Source: Sanguibacter suarezii NBRC 16159 (GTDB lineage Bacteria; Actinomycetota; Actinomycetes; Actinomycetales; Cellulomonadaceae). Taken from it: a stretch of DNA of 64,000 nucleotides. Position numbers and translations under genes: made by a program. Under the pieces are notes generated by a model, which made no database searches, was not told where the DNA came from, and saw only the letters and a list, made by a program, of their open reading frames with translations. This document shows, one piece after another, positions 26,219-35,324 of this stretch. The DNA is taken from the NCBI RefSeq assembly GCF_001552735.1, contig NZ_BCRT01000015.1, forward strand, positions 62,001 through 126,000. Direction: 5' to 3'. Numbering within the stretch: the first letter of the stretch is position 1; every line of letters starts with the position of its first letter.

Positions 26219-27183
26219 GAGCCAAGACTACGACGCACCGGGTCAGATCCTGGGGCGGGTGCCTGCCCGGCGTCGGCCGCGGCCACGACCGCGAGCGCCT
26301 GCTCGAGCAGGTCCGGTGTGCCGGCATCGAGCCAGGTGACCCGGGGGTCTCGGCCGAACCAGCCCATCTGCTTGCGGGCCAGGCGCCGGGTGTTCGCCGT
26401 GACGTCCGCGCGCGCCTGCTCCTCGGTGATCTCCCCGGCGAGGTGGGCGAGCACCTCGGCGTAGCCGACGGCGCGGGAAGCGGTGCGTCCCAGGCCGTGC
26501 GCGGCCAGCGTGGCCACCTCGTCCACGAGCCCCGCCTGCCACATGCGCTCCACCCGCTCGGCGACCCGGGCGTCGAGCACCTCGCGGTCGCAGTCCAGCC
26601 CGATCTGCACGGCCGGACGGACGTACTCCTGCCGGGGCAGGTTCGCGGTGAAGGGCGCACCGGTGATCTCGATGACCTCGAGCGCACGCACGATCCGCCG
26701 CGTGTTCTTGGGGCCGATCGACTGCGCCGCGGCCGGGTCCGCGGCCTTGAGCTCCTCGTAGAGCGCCCGGGTACCCTCGCGGTCGGCGCGCTCCTCGAGG
26801 GCGGCGCGCACCGCGGGGTCGGTCCCGGGGAAGGTCATGTCGTCGAGCAGGGCTCGCAGGTACAGCCCCGAGCCGCCGACGACGATCGCCCGTGCGCCGC
26901 GGTCGGCGATCGCGTCGAGGTCGGCGCGGGCCGCGCTCTGGTAGCGGGCCACCGAGGAGTCCTCACGGACGTCCAGCACGTCCACCTGGTGGTGGACGAT
27001 GCCGCGGCGCTGGTCGAGGGGAACCTTGGCGGAGCCGATGTCCATCCCGGTGTAGAGCTGGTAGGCGTCGGCGTTGACGATCTCGGCGGGAGGACCTCCG
27101 GCGGGGCTCAGCGCCTCGGCGAGATCCAGGGCGAGGTCGGACTTTCCAGTGGCCGTAGGGCCTACGACAGCAACGATCAGCAC
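26215..27183 (-). CDS. miaA: tRNA dimethylallyltransferase MiaA
   Basis: Transfers a dimethylallyl group to N6 of A37 in tRNAs reading UNN codons; MiaB, also in this window, then adds the methylthio group. The 322-residue protein has the P-loop GPTATGKS (8-15), the catalytic-Asp segment NADAYQLYTGMDIGSAK near 40-56, and the C-terminal tRNA-binding region with NTRRLARKQMGWF. Length is normal. The start is GTG at 27183, with TACCGT six bases upstream (27190-27195) and no ribosome site, so translation is probably leaderless. dapF overlaps its stop. It diverges from the YbjN/HSP90 block across 161 bases that must hold both promoters. Confidence 0.95.
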   Translation of the reverse strand: MLIVAVVGPTATGKSDLALDLAEALSPAGGPPAEIVNADAYQLYTGMDIGSAKVPLDQRRGIVHHQVDVLDVREDSSVARYQSAARADLDAIADRGARAIVVGGSGLYLRALLDDMTFPGTDPAVRAALEERADREGTRALYEELKAADPAAAQSIGPKNTRRIVRALEVIEITGAPFTANLPRQEYVRPAVQIGLDCDREVLDARVAERVERMWQAGLVDEVATLAAHGLGRTASRAVGYAEVLAHLAGEITEEQARADVTANTRRLARKQMGWFGRDPRVTWLDAGTPDLLEQALAVVAAADAGQAPAPGSDPVRRSLGS

Positions 27184-27214
27184 ACCGTGACGGTACCTTC
27201 TTTGTCGGGCGTCC

Positions 27215-27243
27215 TTGGTGTTGTCAGCCCGAGCACCTAGGCT
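27215..27243 (+). promoter_or_regulatory. Candidate promoter of the YbjN-HSP90-TPR operon
   Basis: TTGGTG (27215-27220), 17-base spacer, TAGGCT (27238-27243), about 100 bases before the first start codon. Confidence 0.45.
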
Positions 27244-27344
27244 GCACTACGCATGCGTGATCTTGTGGACAGCCCTCGCGGTTCCACGCCCAGCACGGCA
27301 GCACGACGTCGACCGGCCTCACACGAACTCAGGAGATCATCACG

Positions 27345-27815
27345 ATGGGGTTCTTCAACAAGCCCGAAACCGATACGTCGCTGGCCGCCAGCGGTGAGAA
27401 CCTGCCGCTGACGCGCGCCCGGATCGAGGCGTACCTCACCTCCCAGGACTGGTCCTTCGGGGTGGACCCGGACGGTGACGTCGGTGGCCAGTGGGACGAC
27501 AACGTCTTCTACTTCTTCCAGATGGGCGAGGACCAGGAGGTCCTGCAGGTCCGCGGACGGTGGAAGCACTCCTTCCCGGCCAGCCGCGAGGCCGAGTTCG
27601 CGCTGCTGCTCAACGAGTTCAACCGTGACCTCATCTGGCCCAAGATGTACGCCCGGGTCGAGGAGGACGAGCTGGGCATCTACTCCGAGGTCTCCACCGA
27701 CCTCGAGCACGGGGTGAGCGACGCCCAGCTCGGCCAGCTCATCTCCTGCGGCCTGTTCACCGGGCTGCGCGCCTTCGAGCGCATCGCCGAGCGTCTGGGC
27801 ATCCCTGAAGAGTGA
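27345..27815 (+). CDS. YbjN domain-containing protein (first copy)
   Basis: A 156-residue protein of the YbjN family, whose fold resembles type III secretion chaperones (CesT-like). Its function in actinobacteria is unknown. Residues about 22-150 form the domain: GDVGGQWDDNVFYFF, EVLQVRGRWKH, NEFNRDLIWPKMY and EVSTDLEHGVSDAQL are shared with the two other YbjN proteins at 32.4-33.6 kb, pointing to duplication. The start MGFF is identical to that of the second copy. AGGAG lies nine bases before the ATG. It is 24 bases upstream of the HSP90 gene on the same strand and probably co-transcribed, so a chaperone-related role is plausible but inferred. Confidence 0.9.
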   Translation: MGFFNKPETDTSLAASGENLPLTRARIEAYLTSQDWSFGVDPDGDVGGQWDDNVFYFFQMGEDQEVLQVRGRWKHSFPASREAEFALLLNEFNRDLIWPKMYARVEEDELGIYSEVSTDLEHGVSDAQLGQLISCGLFTGLRAFERIAERLGIPEE

Positions 27816-27839
27816 CCTGCTCTCCGTGAACGGAGCACC

Positions 27840-29732
27840 ATGAGCCAGACCTTCCAGGTCGACCTCGGAGGGATCGTCGACCTCCTGGCCCGCCACCTGT
27901 ACTCCAGCCCGCGCGTCTACCTGCGCGAGCTGCTGCAGAACGGGGCGGACGCGATCACCGCGCTCGACGAGCTGCGACCACCGGCCTCGGACCTGGGCAT
28001 GGACCAGAGCAGCCCGCCGCGCAGGATCACGCTGCGTCCGCTGCCCGACGGCGGGCTCGAGGTCACCGACACCGGGGTGGGGCTGACCCTTGCCGAGGCC
28101 GAAGAGCTGCTCGCGACCATCGGTCGCAGCTCCAAGCGGGACCTCGAGCTGGGCACCGGGCGCGAGCAGTTCCTCGGCCAGTTCGGCATCGGGCTGCTCT
28201 CGGCGTTCATGGTCACCGACGAGATCGAGCTCGTCTCACGCTCGGCACGCGACCCCCAGGCCCCGGCGATCGTGTGGCGGGGCCACGCGGACGGGCGGTA
28301 CTCCCTGACCGAGATCGCTCCGCACGACCTGCGGCACCCACCGACCACCGGCAGCACCGTGCGGCTGCGACCGCGGCGGGACATGGAGCACTGGCTCGAG
28401 GCGGCCACGGTCGAGTCGCTGGCCCGCGACTACGGCTCCCTGCTGCCGATCGAGCTGGTCATGGAGATGCCGCAGCCGTCTGGACGGCCGACCACCCGCC
28501 GGCTCAGCGAGCCGGACTTGCCCTGGGAACGCACCTTCTCCACCCCGCGAGCGCGCGAGCTGGCGCTGCGGGCCCACTGCGAGGCGACCCTCGGCTTCAC
28601 CCCGCTGGCGGCCATCAACCTGGACATCCCCATCGCCGGTCTCAGCGGCGTGGCGTACGTGCTCCCCTCAGCCGTGTCACCCACGACCTCCGCCGCGCAC
28701 CGCGTCTACCTCAAGCGGATGCTGCTGGGCACCACGGTCGACGACCTGCTGCCGCCGTGGGCGTTCTTCGTCCGGTGCGTCCTCAACACCTCCGCCGTGC
28801 GTCCCACAGCCTCGCGTGAGGGTCTCTACGAGGACGACATCCTGCTGGCCACCCGCGAGGCACTCGGTGCACGCATCCGCCAGTGGACGCTGGAGACCCT
28901 CTCCCTGCGCGACGGCGGCTCGGACCAGCTCCTCGCCGTGCACCACCTCGCTGTCCGGGCCCTGGCCCTGGCTGACGACGACATGCTCGACCTCGCCATC
29001 CACGTGCTGCCCTACGAGTGCACGACCGGCACGGCCACCCTGGCCGAGATCCACGCCGAGCAGGGCCACATCCGCTTCGCGCCCACCCTCGAGTCCTTCC
29101 GGCGCATCGCGCCGGTGGCGCGCGCCCAGAACCTCACCGTGGTCAACGCCGGCTACGTCTACGACGCCGACCTCCTCGAACGGGTCCGCAGCCGCCGACC
29201 GCGCTGGACGGTCACCCCGATCACCTCGACCGACGTGTCCCAGGCCCTCACCCCGCTCGACCCGCTGCGCCACCTCGAGACCCTCGACGCCCTCGAGGCG
29301 GTCCGCACGGCGGTCCGCCCCCACGGCTGCGACGTCGAGCTGCGTGCCTTCGAGCCGCACGAGACGCCGTCCCTGCTGCTCGACGACCGCGACGCCGAGC
29401 ACGCCCGGTCCGTGGCGCAGACCATCTCCCAGGCCCCGGACCTGTGGGGCGGCGTGCTGGGGCAGCTCCCCACGTCGTCGGCCGTGCGACGCCTCGTGCT
29501 CAACGACGCCAACCCCGCCGTGCGAGACGTCCTGGAGGCCCCCGACGCCCAGGTGCGCACGGCCGGCGCGCAGGCCCTCTACGTCACCGCTCTGCTCATG
29601 TCCGGGAAGCCGCTGAGCGTGAGCGAGGCGACGGTGCTCAACGGTGCGCTCTCGACCCTGCTGCGCAGCGCCGCCGCGCCCGGCACTGATCCTCCACCCA
29701 CGCCCGGCGAGGCCGGAGGCTCCCGCTCATGA
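27840..29732 (+). CDS. HSP90 family protein (HtpG-like)
   Basis: A 630-residue chaperone-like GHKL ATPase. The N-terminal ATP site has E30 and N34 (LRELLQNGADAI), D77 (EVTDTGVGL) and the lid glycines GQFGIGLLSAF. The middle domain shows RVYLKRMLLG and NTSAVRPTASREGLYEDD, close to the HtpG client-binding region with its ATP-sensing Arg. The C-terminal part (about 480-630) is diverged from E. coli HtpG, so dimerisation may differ. The length resembles HtpG. Its stop overlaps the ATG of the next gene (ATGA), tightly coupling it to a TPR-like protein, and a YbjN gene precedes it by 24 bases. Clients are unknown. Many actinobacteria lack HSP90 altogether. Confidence 0.93.
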   Translation: MSQTFQVDLGGIVDLLARHLYSSPRVYLRELLQNGADAITALDELRPPASDLGMDQSSPPRRITLRPLPDGGLEVTDTGVGLTLAEAEELLATIGRSSKRDLELGTGREQFLGQFGIGLLSAFMVTDEIELVSRSARDPQAPAIVWRGHADGRYSLTEIAPHDLRHPPTTGSTVRLRPRRDMEHWLEAATVESLARDYGSLLPIELVMEMPQPSGRPTTRRLSEPDLPWERTFSTPRARELALRAHCEATLGFTPLAAINLDIPIAGLSGVAYVLPSAVSPTTSAAHRVYLKRMLLGTTVDDLLPPWAFFVRCVLNTSAVRPTASREGLYEDDILLATREALGARIRQWTLETLSLRDGGSDQLLAVHHLAVRALALADDDMLDLAIHVLPYECTTGTATLAEIHAEQGHIRFAPTLESFRRIAPVARAQNLTVVNAGYVYDADLLERVRSRRPRWTVTPITSTDVSQALTPLDPLRHLETLDALEAVRTAVRPHGCDVELRAFEPHETPSLLLDDRDAEHARSVAQTISQAPDLWGGVLGQLPTSSAVRRLVLNDANPAVRDVLEAPDAQVRTAGAQALYVTALLMSGKPLSVSEATVLNGALSTLLRSAAAPGTDPPPTPGEAGGSRS

Positions 29733-31642
29733 CGCGCACGCTCGAGGACGCCAACCACGCGATCACCGCGACCCGCCGGATGCCCTTCGGCCTGGCCCGC
29801 AACGAGGTCGCCGCCGAGCTCGTGCGCGAGATCGACGCCGAGGGGCCCGAGACGGCGCTCGCCTACGCGCTGTTCGCGCTCGTGGAGTCCTACGCCTTCA
29901 GCCAGGAGGTCGAGAAGGCGTACCTGCCCTTCACCCGATCCGTCCGGCTGTGGGACGAGCGGCCCGAGCTGTTCGACGCCGACGACACCCACTCCTTGTT
30001 CTGGTCCTTCAAGTGGATGGTCGGGGACCTCATGAGCTACCCCGCCATCCCCGCCGCGCAGATCCAGGCCACCCTCGCGGACATGGAACGTCGCTACCTC
30101 CTCGCCGGCAACGGGCTCAGCGCCGTCAACCACCTCCTCTTCGAGTGGCACCACCTGCTCGGGGACGACGAGGCCGGCCCCAGCTACGAGCGATGGGTCA
30201 CGACCGAGCGGGACGCCTTCTCCCAGTGCCCCGCCTGCGAGCCCGGGGACCGCACGACGTACCTCTTCGCCCAGGGCCGCGTCGAGGAGGGCATCCGTCT
30301 GCTCGAGGAGGCCCAGCGGTCCGGTGCGACGTGCCGCACGGAGCCCGCCGACATGCTCTCTCAGCTCCAGCTCGCCTACCTCGAGGTGGGTGACGCCGAG
30401 GGCGCCGCCCGCGCGCACCGGCACGGCCTGGCCACCCTGGACAGCAGCGGCGAGATGCCCAGCGCCCGCGGGCGTCACATCCAGTTCCTGGCCCGCACCG
30501 GCAACACGACGGCCGCGCTGCGCTTCCTCGAGCGCTACCAGAGGCTCCTCACCGGTGCCGAGACACCCCGAGGCCGGTGGGCCTTCCTGACCACGGCCGG
30601 CGTGGGCGTCGCCGCGCTGCGTGCCACGGTCCCGGACACCCCCCTCGCGCTCGACGCCGTCGAGGCAGCAACCGTCGGCGAGCTCGACGACTGGATGCGA
30701 GCGCAGGCACTGTTCCTGGCCGCGCAGTTCGACGAGCGCGGCGGTACCTCAGCCATGACCGAGAGGACCCTGCACGCCTGGTCGGGGACCCATGTCCGGG
30801 TGCCGGTCGACCTCACCGTCCTCGCCCTGGACCCCGCCGATCACATCTCCGGCCGCCGGCCCGGGGACGACGATGCGTCCGAGCGCTCCGGCCCTGCTGT
30901 CTCGGACGTGCGCCCGTTCATCGCCCGGGCGGGCATCGGTCCGGACTCTCTCGTCCACCAGGCCGAGCTCCTCACCGGCACCGACCCCGTCTCCGCCGCG
31001 CGTCTGTACGCCCACGCCAGCTCCGCCTTCGCCGAGGCCGGAGAGCATGAGGCGGCCGGGTTCGCGCTGGCTGAGGCGGCGATGCTCAGCGACCAGCTCG
31101 GCGACAGCGACGGGGCGGCCGCGACGATCGACGCCGCGGTGGCCCTGCTCCAGACCGCTGGGACAGGTCTGGAGTACGTGGGGCCCGTCATCCGGGTCGC
31201 TGCCCGCCTGTCTGGCGCGATCGGCGCCTGGGGACCTGCCACGGACCTGCTCGACTGGGCCCTGACGGAGGCGGAGGGGGCCTCTCCCACAGCTGCCCTC
31301 GCCCTCGAGCGCGCCCACCTGCTCGACACCCGAGCACGTGTACACGCCTCCCGGGGAGAGGGTGCTGCGGCCCTCGCCGACGCCTGCACCGCTGCCGAGG
31401 CCTTCACCGCGCACCACCGCACCGCCGATGCCGCCCACGCGTCCTGGCTGGCCGGCACGATCGAGCTGGGGGCGGGACGCCCCGACGCCGCGGTGACGCA
31501 CCTGGAGTCCGCGGCCCAGGGCTTCACGCTGGTCCGCGCGCGCGAGCAGCAGGCCGAGGTCCTCGGGCAGCTCATCCAGGCGCTCACCGCCCTGGGCCGC
31601 GCCGACGACGCGGCCGTGCTCGTGCGGCAGCTCGCGGGGTAG
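29729..31642 (+). CDS. Large TPR-like helical-repeat protein coupled to HSP90
   Basis: A 637-residue protein composed almost entirely of alpha-helical pairs. Tetratricopeptide-like segments are clearest at about 180-260 (QLQLAYLEVGDAEGAARAH, FLARTGNTTAALRFLERY) and 400-637 (repeated ALA/AEA helices ending LGRADDAAVLVRQLAG). A CPAC motif at 167-170 within an otherwise Cys-poor protein may bind metal. No signal or membrane segment is present. The ATG overlaps the HSP90 stop (ATGA), so the proteins are made stoichiometrically. Eukaryotic HSP90 uses TPR co-chaperones, so a physical partnership is a natural hypothesis, but the C-terminal EEVD tail that TPR clamps bind is absent here. Function otherwise unknown. 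Confidence 0.82.
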   Translation: MTRTLEDANHAITATRRMPFGLARNEVAAELVREIDAEGPETALAYALFALVESYAFSQEVEKAYLPFTRSVRLWDERPELFDADDTHSLFWSFKWMVGDLMSYPAIPAAQIQATLADMERRYLLAGNGLSAVNHLLFEWHHLLGDDEAGPSYERWVTTERDAFSQCPACEPGDRTTYLFAQGRVEEGIRLLEEAQRSGATCRTEPADMLSQLQLAYLEVGDAEGAARAHRHGLATLDSSGEMPSARGRHIQFLARTGNTTAALRFLERYQRLLTGAETPRGRWAFLTTAGVGVAALRATVPDTPLALDAVEAATVGELDDWMRAQALFLAAQFDERGGTSAMTERTLHAWSGTHVRVPVDLTVLALDPADHISGRRPGDDDASERSGPAVSDVRPFIARAGIGPDSLVHQAELLTGTDPVSAARLYAHASSAFAEAGEHEAAGFALAEAAMLSDQLGDSDGAAATIDAAVALLQTAGTGLEYVGPVIRVAARLSGAIGAWGPATDLLDWALTEAEGASPTAALALERAHLLDTRARVHASRGEGAAALADACTAAEAFTAHHRTADAAHASWLAGTIELGAGRPDAAVTHLESAAQGFTLVRAREQQAEVLGQLIQALTALGRADDAAVLVRQLAG

Positions 31643-31666
31643 CCCCCCGCAGCACGCACCCGTCGA

Positions 31667-32302
31667 TCAGCTGACGCCGGCGAGCTCGCGGAGCACCTCG
31701 TGGTAGAGCGCGTGCGTCCGCTCCTCGGCGAGGGCGAGGGCGGCTGGTGCCCCCACCGGGAGCACGCCGTCTGGCCGAGCGCAGGCGAAGACCACCAGGT
31801 GGGGCCCCACCAGCGCCGGATGCGTGATCGGTGCGAGGTCGCTCGATGCCGTCGGTGCCGTCGGGGCCGACCCGCCCGTCACGGTCTGCGCCGAGACTCC
31901 CGCCTCCGCGCCGATCTCGTGCGTGGTGATCTCCCGGGTCCACCCGGCCAGGCGGAGCAGCGCCACCGCGGCCGAGGCCGTCACGTGCAGCGCGGGTTCG
32001 TCGGAGATGGCGCCCAGGGCAGCGAGGGCAGGCGACGCCGGCACCGCGGGGCCGGCGAGGTACCCGCTCGCGCCGAGATCGGGCTGGGCTCCCGTCGTCG
32101 TACGGGTCTGGAGGGCGGGTGCCACGACGGTGACCGTGCCCCCGGGCACCAGGACCGCCTCCAGGGCGGGCCGCAGCGCCGCGAGGACCTCCTCCCGGCG
32201 CTCGGCGAAGACGTCCAGGCGCCCGGTGACGCCGGGCAGCAGCGCCAGGCTCAGGTCATGTCGTTGCACGGTGAGGGTTGCGGTGGCTGGCACCCGGCCC
32301 AC
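31667..32302 (-). CDS. Conserved hypothetical protein in the miaB-miaA interval
   Basis: A 211-residue Ala/Val/Thr-rich protein without recognisable catalytic motif, signal peptide or membrane helix. Its position between miaB and miaA recalls mycobacterial Rv2728c and related proteins, some annotated as class III extradiol-dioxygenase-like, but I do not see the CPHPPLL-type start or metal ligands, so that link is tentative. It is strongly coding by third-position G/C. It converges with the TPR-like gene (24-base gap) and diverges from the second YbjN gene. The GTG at 32302 is the longest start; internal GTG codons within the first 15 residues are alternatives, and no ribosome site is clear. 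Confidence 0.6.
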   Translation of the reverse strand: MGRVPATATLTVQRHDLSLALLPGVTGRLDVFAERREEVLAALRPALEAVLVPGGTVTVVAPALQTRTTTGAQPDLGASGYLAGPAVPASPALAALGAISDEPALHVTASAAVALLRLAGWTREITTHEIGAEAGVSAQTVTGGSAPTAPTASSDLAPITHPALVGPHLVVFACARPDGVLPVGAPAALALAEERTHALYHEVLRELAGVS

Positions 32303-32396
32303 GCTAGCCGATGGTCCTCAGGTGCGCGGTGGTCCCCGCCGTGAGCCCAGGGATGACCGGACGGCGACGACGCAGCGGCGACGGTAGGCTGGTCGC

Positions 32397-33029
32397 ATGG
32401 GGTTCTTCAGAGATCGCAGGCGCCGCACGGCTGACGGGTCCGGTCCCCACCGCTCGCCGCACGAGGCACCCACCGACCGCGCCGCGACTGCGTCATCGTC
32501 TGCAGCACAGCCACCTGACCTGGCCGGGGACGAGGTCGAGGCCATGCTCATGGAAGGACTCGGCGCCCTGCGGATCGCCGACACCGACACCACGCACGCC
32601 CCAGGTCCGCTGACCATGGCGCGCATCGTCGACTGGATCACGGACTACGGCTACACGTACTTCATCGACTCCGACGGAGACATCGGAGGGCTGTGGCACT
32701 CCCGGTTGTTCTACTTCCTGCTGTTCGGCGGTGAACGCGAGATCCTCCAGGTCCGCGGGCAGTGGAACCGGGAGATCACCATCGACCGGATCGAAGAGGT
32801 CCTCGACTTCTGCAACGAGTGGAACACCGACCGCATCTGGCCCAAGGTGTACTTCCGGGTCCGTGACAACGGCATGATCCAGGTCTACGGCGAGGTGTCG
32901 GTGGACTTCGAGCACGGCGCCAACGACGAACAGCTCGACCAGGTCCTCACCTGCGGGCTGAGCACCGGCGCGATGCTCTTCGACGCGCTCGACGCCCTCT
33001 ACCCCGACCCCGCACAGGTGGCACCATGA
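32397..33029 (+). CDS. YbjN domain-containing protein (second copy)
   Basis: A 210-residue YbjN protein. The first 60 residues are a hydrophilic, low-complexity extension (MGFFRDRRRR start); the domain covers about 65-205, with GDIGGLWHSRLFYFLLFGGEREILQVRGQW and NEWNTDRIWPKVYFR segments closely matching the other two copies. Function unknown. TAGGCT at 32385-32390 lies six bases before the ATG with no ribosome site, indicating a leaderless transcript separate from the HSP90 operon. Its TGA overlaps the ATG of the third copy (ATGA), so the two are translationally coupled and perhaps form a heteromer. Confidence 0.9.
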   Translation: MGFFRDRRRRTADGSGPHRSPHEAPTDRAATASSSAAQPPDLAGDEVEAMLMEGLGALRIADTDTTHAPGPLTMARIVDWITDYGYTYFIDSDGDIGGLWHSRLFYFLLFGGEREILQVRGQWNREITIDRIEEVLDFCNEWNTDRIWPKVYFRVRDNGMIQVYGEVSVDFEHGANDEQLDQVLTCGLSTGAMLFDALDALYPDPAQVAP

Positions 33030-33583
33030 ACGCCCGCCAGCGATCGCCGTGGCTCGCCCGGATCCTCGCCAAGTCCCCCAGCCCGACGCCGGCCCCCGCC
33101 CCGCGGGTGCCCGTCGAGCTGCCGACCCCGCTGACCCGTGACCGGGTCGGTGCCTACCTCACCCGTCGCGGGTACACCTACCGCCTCGACGAGGACGGTG
33201 ACATCACCGGCACCTGGGACGGCAACCGGTTCTGGTTCCTGCTCCTGGGGACCAAGCAGGAGATCCTCCAGGTGCGAGGACGCTGGCACCGCCCGCTCCC
33301 CGACTCCGGCCGGCTCGCCGCCCTGCAGATCATCAACGACTGGAACCGCGAGCGCATCTGGCCCAAGGCCTATCTGCGCAGCGAGCCCACGGGACTGGCC
33401 CTCTACACCGAGGTGTCGGTGGACTTCAGCCCAGGCGCGACCAAGGACCAGCTCGAGCAGATGGTGGCCTGTGGTCTGGGCACCTCGATCCAGCTGTTCA
33501 CCTCCGTCTCGGCGCTGCTGCCGCCGGACAACCCCGACGACCTCGAGGGCATGGACGACAACGGGGCGTTCGGGGAGGACTAG
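33026..33583 (+). CDS. YbjN domain-containing protein (third copy)
   Basis: A 185-residue YbjN protein translationally coupled to the second copy by a four-base overlap. Residues about 35-175 form the domain: GDITGTWDGNRFWFLLLG, EILQVRGRWHRPL, NDWNRERIWPKAYLR and VSVDFSPGATKDQLEQMVACGLG. An acidic tail (DNPDDLEGMDDNG) follows. Its function is unknown. In other actinobacteria one or two such genes, sometimes annotated as type III secretion chaperone-like, lie between miaB and miaA, so the pair here fits the conserved arrangement. It converges with miaB, only 31 bases separating the stops, with no obvious hairpin between them. Confidence 0.9.
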   Translation: MNARQRSPWLARILAKSPSPTPAPAPRVPVELPTPLTRDRVGAYLTRRGYTYRLDEDGDITGTWDGNRFWFLLLGTKQEILQVRGRWHRPLPDSGRLAALQIINDWNRERIWPKAYLRSEPTGLALYTEVSVDFSPGATKDQLEQMVACGLGTSIQLFTSVSALLPPDNPDDLEGMDDNGAFGED

Positions 33584-33614
33584 CGTCCGGAGGTCTGGCC
33601 CTCGGGACGACTGG

Positions 33615-35324
33615 CTAGGGCCGATGTACGGTCGGCAGCCCCAGGACCACCGGTCCCCCGGCCGCGGGCGTACCGGCGGCTGGCCCGTGGCTGTGGGTGT
33701 CCTCCCCCAGACCAGCCCGAGCCTTCTCGCGCTGCACCCACGCGTCTCCGGCGCGGGTGCGTCGCACGGCGTAGACGGCCTGTGCGGGGTCCGCAGCCAC
33801 GGCTGAGTCAGCCACCAGGTGGTACGGCGCGGAGTGGGTGACGCGCACGGTGACCACGTCGCCGGGACGCGGCAGCTGCGCGTCGACGTCGTCGGCCAGA
33901 CGCGGGTCAGCGGGGTCCACGTCAGACCGGCTGGAGTCGGCAGCGCTCGTCTCGCTCGCGAGCGCGGACGTCAGGTGAGCCGGCAGCGCGAGGTGCACCA
34001 GGCGGTTGTCCGCGGCGCGTCCGGTGAGACGGTGGGTCTCCCCGTCCTTGCGACCGGCTCCGTCGGTGATCAGCACCTCGACCGTGCGACCCACCTGGCG
34101 TGCGCTCTCCTGGGCGGAGATCTCGTCCTGGAGGGCCATGAGGCGGACGTAGCGTTCCTGGACGACCTCCTTGGGGAGCTGGTCGGGCAGGGTCGCAGCA
34201 GGGGTCCCTGGACGCTGGGAGTACTGGAAGGTGAACGCTGAGGCGAAGCGGGAAGCCTCCACCACGCGCAGTGTCTCGGCGAAGTCCTCCTCGGTCTCGC
34301 CGGGGAAACCGACGATGAGGTCGGTGGTGATCGCGGCGTCGGGCATGGCGGCGCGGACCCGGTCGAGGATGCCGAGGAACTTGTCCGAGCGGTAGGACCG
34401 GCGCATGGCCCGCAGGATGCGGTCCGACCCGGCTTGCAAGGGCATGTGCAGCTGCGGCATGACGTTCGGCGTCTCGGCCATGGCCTCGATGACGTCGTCG
34501 GTGAAGGCCGCCGGGTGCGGGGAGGTGAAGCGCACCCGCTCCAGGCCCTCGATCTCACCGCAGGCCCGCAGCAGCTTCGCGAAGGCGCCCCGGTCGCCGA
34601 ACTCGACGCCGTAGCTGTTGACGTTCTGGCCGAGCAGGGTCACCTCGATCGCACCCTGAGCGACGAGCGCCTCGATCTCGGCGAGGATCTGGCCGGGTCG
34701 GCGGTCGCGCTCCTTGCCGCGCAGGTGCGGGACGATGCAGAAGGTGCAGGTGTTGTTGCACCCGACGCTGATCGAGACCCAGCCGGCGTAGACCGACTCA
34801 CGACGGGTGGGCAGGGTCGACGGGAAGACCTGCAGCGACTCCGCGATCTCGACCTGCGCCGCCTCGTTGTGCCGGGCGCGCTCGAGCAGCACCGGAAGCG
34901 CGTCGAGGTTGTGGGTGCCGAAGACGACGTCCACCCACGGCGCCCGCTCGACGATCCCGGAGCGGTCCTTCTGCGCCAGGCAGCCGCCGACGGCGATCTG
35001 CATCCCCGCGCGGCGGTTCTTCAGCGCGGCGAGCTGGCCGAGGTTGCCGTAGAGCTTCGTCGAGGCGTTCTCGCGCACGGCGCACGTGTTGATGACCACG
35101 ACGTCGGCCTCGTAGCGGGCTGCGTCGGCGTCGGAGGCCTTGTGATAGCCCGCCTGCTCGAGCATCCCAGCCATCCGCTCGGAGTCGTGGACGTTCATCT
35201 GGCACCCGAGGGTGCGCACGAGGTAGGTGCGGGGTGCCCGCAGGCCGCCCTCGGCAGCCTCCACGGCGGGCGCGGGGAGGTCCAGGAGGGGCAGGGAGGC
35301 GGGGGTGGAGGCGTTCGCAGACAT
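33615..35324 (-). CDS. miaB: tRNA-2-methylthio-N6-dimethylallyladenosine synthase MiaB
   Basis: Radical-SAM methylthiotransferase that converts i6A37 to ms2i6A37 in tRNA, acting after MiaA. The 569-residue enzyme has the auxiliary-cluster cysteines C41, C81 and C115 in its UPF0004 domain, the radical-SAM CxxxCxxC at C189, C193 and C196, and a TRAM RNA-binding region near residues 405-470, which here contains an unusual Ala/Ser/Asp insertion (about 435-465). A Gly/Ala/Pro tail ends the protein. The ATG at 35324 follows TATCCT by seven bases (35332-35337) and lacks a ribosome site, so a leaderless mRNA is likely. It diverges from gluABCD across 135 bases. Confidence 0.96.

Follow-up and report, generated by a model that had tools for sequence, protein, structure and literature searches.

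What might a bacterial HSP90 be doing in a gene block that also encodes a helical-repeat protein and three YbjN proteins? Such a block occupies part of a 64,000-nucleotide stretch of the Sanguibacter suarezii NBRC 16159 genome (contig NZ_BCRT01000015.1, positions 62,001 to 126,000; hereafter the window), where it is flanked by dapF (193.5 bits) and miaA (235.1 bits) on one side and by miaB (459.4 bits) on the other, all scoring above their NCBIfam cut-offs. The block probably encodes a bacterial HSP90, a tetratricopeptide repeat (TPR) co-chaperone dedicated to it, and YbjN as the module that binds clients. A chaperone module is the best reading because the HSP90-TPR gene pair is conserved and YbjN is linked to both of its members, also by gene fusion. 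The 637-residue helical-repeat protein belongs to a family named TPRN here, which is defined by its N-terminal domain. The main features of the block, numbered from the first letter of the window, are as follows.

27345..27815, + strand: YbjN1, 156 amino acids, opening the cassette; Pfam PF10722, 82.6 bits (cut-off 22)
27840..29732, + strand: HSP90 of the NF010683 family, 630 amino acids; ATPase residues kept, predicted N-M-C three-domain fold
29729..29732, + strand: ATGA overlap of the HSP90 stop and the TPRN start, seen in the sequence; suggests translational coupling
29729..31642, + strand: TPRN, 637 amino acids; N-terminal helical domain about 1-352, linker 369-397, C-terminal TPR solenoid about 400-637
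32397..33029, + strand: YbjN2, 210 amino acids; PF10722, 94.0 bits; resident of the miaA-miaB interval, in a clade that includes HSP90-free relatives
33026..33583, + strand: YbjN3, 185 amino acids; PF10722, 98.3 bits; ATGA overlap with YbjN2; resident of the miaA-miaB interval, in a clade that includes HSP90-free relatives

The gene positions, their head-to-tail order and both ATGA overlaps agree with an initial annotation of this DNA. The same annotation had called the HSP90 HtpG-like, a label that proved too loose. The protein scores 742.6 bits against the NCBIfam model NF010683, 'HSP90 family protein' (cut-off 455, model positions 4-596 of 604), and 133.2 bits against the HtpG equivalog model NF003555, far under the cut-off of 371. 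No gene of the source genome passes the HtpG cut-off, this HSP90 included, and an HtpG identity was therefore ruled out. The score against Pfam PF00183 is also below the gathering threshold (14.0 versus 24.4 bits), and the window's HSP90 is not among the 26 of 31 aligned family members that match PF00183 at E <= 0.001. Nevertheless, its AlphaFold2 model, built from 31 sequences (mean predicted local distance difference test score, pLDDT, 85.2; low confidence at residues 1-6, 50-56, the ATP lid 97-115 and the tail), matches solved full-length HSP90s end to end at Z of about 31, including yeast Hsc82 (6xlc_A; Z 31.1, 539 residues aligned, root-mean-square deviation 5.1, model residues 6-615). 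E30, N34 and D77, which the initial annotation had pointed out, are present and invariant in 31/31 aligned HSP90s, as are G79, G81, G113, F115, G116, G118 and R326, and Q114 is found in 30 of the 31; these we take to be the ATPase positions (Glu, Asn, Asp, GxG, lid Gly and middle-domain Arg) of HSP90 motifs.

Because some genomes carry both kinds of HSP90, the window's HSP90 is a separate bacterial paralogue and not simply a stand-in for HtpG. Four genomes (G023, G128, G193 and G246) of one family, f6, whose genomes are large and which is probably Streptomyces, combine NF010683 genes at 821-863 bits with an HtpG-type match at 176-192 bits, and G235 likewise carries both (798 and 175 bits); G107, G161, G182 and G352 show no second, HtpG-type match. 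Chen et al. (2006; PMC1525184) distinguish three groups of bacterial Hsp90, and their table lists two copies from different groups in S. coelicolor (638 and 615 amino acids) and B. fragilis (681 and 588 amino acids). Length and paralogy suggest that NF010683 corresponds to their HTPG Group C, the hsp90C of PMC3708813, and under this assignment both are second, short bacterial Hsp90s. A partner gene is mentioned in neither PMC1525184 nor PMC3708813, as far as the sections cited here go, and the co-evolution analysis described in the latter is limited to hsp90A and leaves hsp90C out. The closest named relative in a similarity search, from which records very near the window may have been omitted, is the HSP90 of Sanguibacter gelidistatuariae (82% identity). 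The second NF010683 match in the source genome is a 25-bit GHKL fragment, located at G000:C21:346404-346721 in a 1024-residue frame with a GHKL-type ATPase match; similar large frames occur in many relatives.

The pairing of this HSP90 with TPRN was traced in 100 distinct HSP90 loci, with repeats removed and the window's own locus excluded; 28 of them came from a similarity search with the window's HSP90. TPRN lies downstream of HSP90 on the same strand in 92 of the 100 (81/90 of the first set, under a stricter position rule), where the counts are of loci rather than independent events and the sampling is tilted toward Actinobacteria. Among 396 genomes of the phylum, NF010683 exceeds its cut-off in 12 and TPRN exceeds 200 bits in 13; both occur in 11, always adjacent (Fisher p 1e-18, kinship ignored). 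Viewed from the TPRN side, a second family, which includes Dactylosporangium (two loci identical), contains TPRN at E <= 1e-10 in 131/150 genomes, and among its best 30 TPRN loci HSP90 is directly upstream in 29, the other (L215) having none within 1.5 kb. Beyond Actinobacteria, the pair is seen in a Listeria plasmid record (L114) and a Planctomycetota genome (L058), each with two TPRN genes, and adjacent HSP90 and TPRN matches, known as matches only, occur in one Paenibacillus plasmid and three Streptomyces plasmids. The pairs in the Streptomyces plasmids, the Dactylosporangium family, Listeria and Planctomycetota, together with the loci in which the HSP90 genes lie outside the miaA-miaB interval or have no miaA, miaB or dapF detected, led us to reject the ideas that the genes are adjacent by chance or that their order is a relic of that interval in one lineage. 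We regard the pair as real and old, conserved far past the window and seldom split, which is the opposite of two genes found mostly apart or of a TPR gene mostly absent where the HSP90 is present.

The two genes are also coupled and diverge together. Overlaps were seen in 29 of the 38 pairs measured (4 bases long in 25 of them), and in 36 the genes are no more than 25 bases apart. Across 27 pairs the distances among the HSP90s and those among the TPRN proteins are correlated (r 0.95), a value that shared ancestry alone can make high; swapping the partners of two paralogous pairs in one genome lowers r to 0.81 and 0.82. No HSP90-TPRN fusion was found in the frames scanned, where the sole fusion was TPRN-YbjN; a 1205-residue frame in G706 was considered as such a fusion and rejected, because it is an HSP90 frame that is too long, and TPRN has its own frame downstream. 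Heuristic clustering of 487 neighbouring open reading frames (ORFs) revealed no further specific gene family recurring beside the pair, and the widest clusters look, from their sequences, like transporters and antisense shadow frames. The module therefore looks self-contained, with clients probably encoded elsewhere. In three loci (L128, L129 and L133) an extra protein of 370-380 residues (TPR_12 33.2 bits in L128) stands between HSP90 and two tandem TPRN genes, and at L114 (10806-12774) an HSP90 family gene is followed by two TPRN genes annotated as hypothetical and then by an SMI1/KNR4 gene.

The TPRN partner is predicted to be almost entirely helical (AlphaFold2 model, pLDDT 92.1, with low confidence in the linker 369-397). 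Its C-terminal half forms a solenoid of antiparallel helix pairs in the model and aligns with the TPR domain of LGN at Z 23.2 over 228 residues, a comparison of predicted structure; this half fills the list of structure-search matches. Pfam TPR models all remain under their cut-offs on TPRN, the best being TPR_19 with 22.5 bits versus 25. The N-terminal domain carries a cysteine motif:

30227..30238, + strand: TPRN codons C167-x2-C170; C167 in 162/163 and C170 in 163/163 sequences
30332..30334, + strand: TPRN codon C202; C in 163/163 sequences

All three cysteines are present together in 162/163 distinct TPRN sequences, a set that was gathered with a hidden Markov model built from 29 of these relatives and is hence not blind. 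The spacing, CxxC followed after 31 residues by C, suggests a zinc or redox-active site, judging from the sequence pattern.

Rap- and LGN-type TPR proteins are signalling adaptors, and the resemblance of the C-terminal half of TPRN to them, together with the distance of the HSP90 from HtpG (133 bits versus 371) and its score under the Pfam HSP90 cut-off (14.0 versus 24.4), is what one might see if the HSP90 were a sensor or switch ATPase, not a folding chaperone, and signalled through TPRN. However, the predicted fold matches full-length HSP90 from end to end with the ATPase residues kept, and no regulator recurs beside HSP90 in the clustering, leaving this explanation a very slim probability.

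If TPRN is a co-chaperone of this HSP90, the two need a binding surface. Eukaryotic Hsp90 has TPR co-chaperones such as Hop/Sti1, FKBP51/52, CHIP and SGT1, and in those systems as in this one an HSP90 is paired with a TPR-solenoid protein. They differ in that the HSP90s of the block's family have no EEVD-type tail, in that TPRN has an N-terminal CxxC-C motif, and in that the link here is a coupled gene pair. No MEEVD- or EEVD-like tail was found in any of the 31/31 aligned HSP90s. The initial annotation's proposal of a dedicated chaperone module, whose clients it left unnamed, is borne out as to the conserved pair and the linkage of YbjN, including by fusion, whereas binding by a eukaryotic-type TPR clamp cannot be assumed because of the missing tails. 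For the same reason docking would use a surface other than the EEVD code. The likeliest dock is the N-terminal domain of TPRN because it is the part common to the 637-residue actinobacterial protein and the 366-residue Planctomycetota protein.

YbjN is linked to the pair by position and by fusion. YbjN proteins have a type III secretion chaperone fold and are thought to act by binding proteins (PMC5398634 on AmyR; PMC9503650), and the cited part of PMC9503650 treats them as peptide-binding chaperones. All three YbjN proteins of the block match the YbjN/TY-chaperone superfamily (PF10722; AmyR, DR1245), and they are the only three matches above the Pfam cut-off in the source genome; searches of the open-licence literature, by title and abstract, gave no paper describing this superfamily as linked to HSP90 or fused with a TPR protein. 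In 36/90 loci HSP90 is immediately preceded by a same-strand YbjN gene; 22 of these loci contain miaA, miaB or dapF, and in 14 none was detected. Within the window's family (61 genomes, 23 with this HSP90), YbjN is adjacent by coordinates in 14/23. The strongest YbjN link to the pair is the TPRN-YbjN fusion, observed as one spanning match in 43/150 genomes of one actinobacterial family; in the best 30 fusion loci YbjN follows TPRN in frame in 30/30, with HSP90 directly upstream in 13 and another YbjN upstream in 17. One such fusion, in G204, measures 534 amino acids as searched and matches Pfam YbjN with 61.5 bits at residues 406-530.

In one locus (L048) the YbjN1-HSP90-TPRN cassette stands outside the miaA-miaB interval with YbjN2-YbjN3 still inside, and in two others (L119 and L124) the cassette has the opposite orientation to YbjN2-YbjN3, a pair kept in the five HSP90-free relatives examined. 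A tree of YbjN proteins places YbjN2 and YbjN3 in separate groups that include HSP90-free genomes. The initial annotation had regarded the HSP90-TPR pair as the element added to the interval. The pair was indeed added, but because the cassette is found elsewhere or inverted, as well as in the 14 loci without miaA, miaB or dapF, while YbjN2-YbjN3 also occur without HSP90, the added unit is better described as YbjN1-HSP90-TPR. Two adjacent YbjN matches (40-166 bits) ahead of HSP90-TPRN were seen in L134, L153, L155, L157 and L164, and on an Actinomyces oris plasmid (L115, 7220-8070) two YbjN matches precede a TPRN gene where HSP90 is absent.

Several observations weigh against the interpretation as a three-component chaperone machine. 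As to the pair, many loci represent close relatives and 28/100 were found by similarity to the window's HSP90; one genome of the 396 (G325) has HSP90 without TPRN, and two others have TPRN (G171) or a TPRN-YbjN fusion (G204) with neither HSP90 in the 19-kb locus nor any NF010683 gene above the cut-off. Seven of the 100 loci lack a TPRN match even though the sequence continues. Among these, L072 has a different TPR protein (TPR_2 27.8 bits) ATGA-coupled to HSP90 in the place of TPRN, L161 has a coupled 740-residue ORF without a Pfam match, in L116 the second gene beyond HSP90 encodes a TPR protein, and in L053, L159, L160 and L163 the genes next to HSP90 look unrelated, judged from their sequences; in the eighth miss (L151) the sequence stops 186 bases past HSP90. 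Within TPRN, H230, a candidate fourth residue of the cysteine motif, is not strict (H in 149/163). As to YbjN, it is missing near HSP90 in 54/90 loci, among them every one of the ten from family f6 and one Streptomyces plasmid, and its linkage is therefore not obligate. Three of the five HSP90-free relatives retain a YbjN1-like gene although both HSP90 and TPRN are missing. A single origin of the HSP90-adjacent YbjN is unsupported in the tree, which has few columns and long branches: 20 HSP90-adjacent rows cluster, with support (93/86) short of the star threshold, the remaining ones fall elsewhere, and 6 changes are required, at least 4 of them forced by well-supported branches. This pattern allows either repeated recruitment or poor resolution.

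The missing YbjN genes, the several origins on the tree and the YbjN1-like genes surviving alone would all fit a two-protein machine of HSP90 and TPRN, with YbjN as a separate general stabiliser that lies nearby since such genes gather at chaperone loci. Set against this are the TPRN-YbjN fusions, with HSP90 directly upstream in 13/30 examined, the YbjN genes ahead of HSP90 in the 14 loci without miaA, miaB and dapF, and the cassette that has moved or been inverted as three genes in L048, L119 and L124; we consider a machine of only two proteins unlikely. The YbjN1-like genes that lack HSP90 and TPRN lie near miaA in L184 (5293), L185 (5199) and L186 (6317), and are perhaps relics of loss.

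In the three-component machine, HSP90 would be the engine, an ATP-driven dimeric clamp, and TPRN its dedicated co-chaperone, produced from a shared message via coupled translation. The cysteine-bearing N-terminal domain of TPRN would dock on HSP90, and its C-terminal TPR groove, where present, could hold the client or another partner. YbjN1 may capture unfolded or aggregation-prone client segments and pass them on through TPRN. The CxxC/C(/H) motif may bind a structural zinc, or it may be a thiol switch tuning TPRN to oxidative stress.

By analogy with HSP90-SGT1 and plant receptors, the module could instead belong to a system of biological conflict, anti-phage or immune-type, and HSP90 and TPRN would then restrain an effector or sensor. 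Consistent with it, the distribution is sporadic, with NF010683 above its cut-off in 48/297 genomes of the order and 23/61 of the window's family, and a cyanobacterial plasmid HSP90 (L116, 6932-9565, 877 amino acids) lies beside a TIR gene and itself has a weak C-terminal TIR match (CAP12-PCTIR_TIR, 19.5 bits under a 24.7 cut-off, E 0.001), possibly representing a conflict-system version. YbjN-like chaperones also appear in predicted conflict systems in the cited part of PMC9503650. Literature on nucleoside-triphosphate-dependent conflict systems, as searched here, contained neither HSP90 nor YbjN. At E <= 0.1, PADLOC returned only TmtA at 13.7 bits on HSP90 residues 30-135 and nothing for the other four proteins; with this low score and no effector neighbour recurring among the 487 clustered ORFs, a defence system was rejected as an assignment. 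Moreover, the window's copy resides in a housekeeping interval, and TPRN, in 131/150 genomes of one family, is commoner than expected for defence. A conflict system is accordingly quite improbable, and the chaperone module is retained as the preferred explanation.

With HtpG, the best-studied bacterial Hsp90, the window's HSP90 has its ATPase residues and three-domain fold in common, but it lies far under the HtpG cut-off, and HtpG has no identified obligate co-chaperone in the cited parts of PMC3708813 and PMC7926864. The former states that no obligate Hsp90 co-chaperones have been identified in bacteria, and the latter that bacterial Hsp90 is without identified cochaperones taking part in protein remodelling. 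By title and abstract, no description of a module combining YbjN, HSP90 and a TPR protein was found in the open-licence literature. We tentatively suggest, at somewhat less than even chances, that the block is the first dedicated bacterial Hsp90 co-chaperone system, an ancient paralogue that works only with a zinc- or thiol-switch TPRN, receives clients via YbjN and has arisen without the EEVD-TPR code. If so, the Hsp90-TPR principle of eukaryotes would have been invented separately here, and actinobacterial YbjN proteins, long without a mechanism, would be Hsp90 client-delivery factors, which would supply the first mechanism for many YbjN proteins and draw attention to the hsp90C paralogue left out of the co-evolution study. 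In any case, the nearly constant company of one TPR gene beside this bacterial Hsp90 gene, and of YbjN in part of the loci, singles out concrete co-chaperone candidates.

As for regulation and the remaining sequence of the block, no sigma-70-like promoter was found within 27000-33800. Heat-shock control by HspR was considered and rejected: no HAIR-like site was found in the block with up to 3 mismatches allowed, and the two matches in other parts of the window are no more than chance would give, at least two matches occurring in 17/100 shuffles. The gap of about 750 bases that the initial annotation placed between TPRN and YbjN2 measures 754 bases but is not empty, since one ORF had been overlooked:

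31667..32302, - strand: ORF of 211 amino acids inside the gap between TPRN and YbjN2

This ORF has no Pfam or NCBIfam match, and it is conserved in two Sanguibacter relatives at 58% and 37%.

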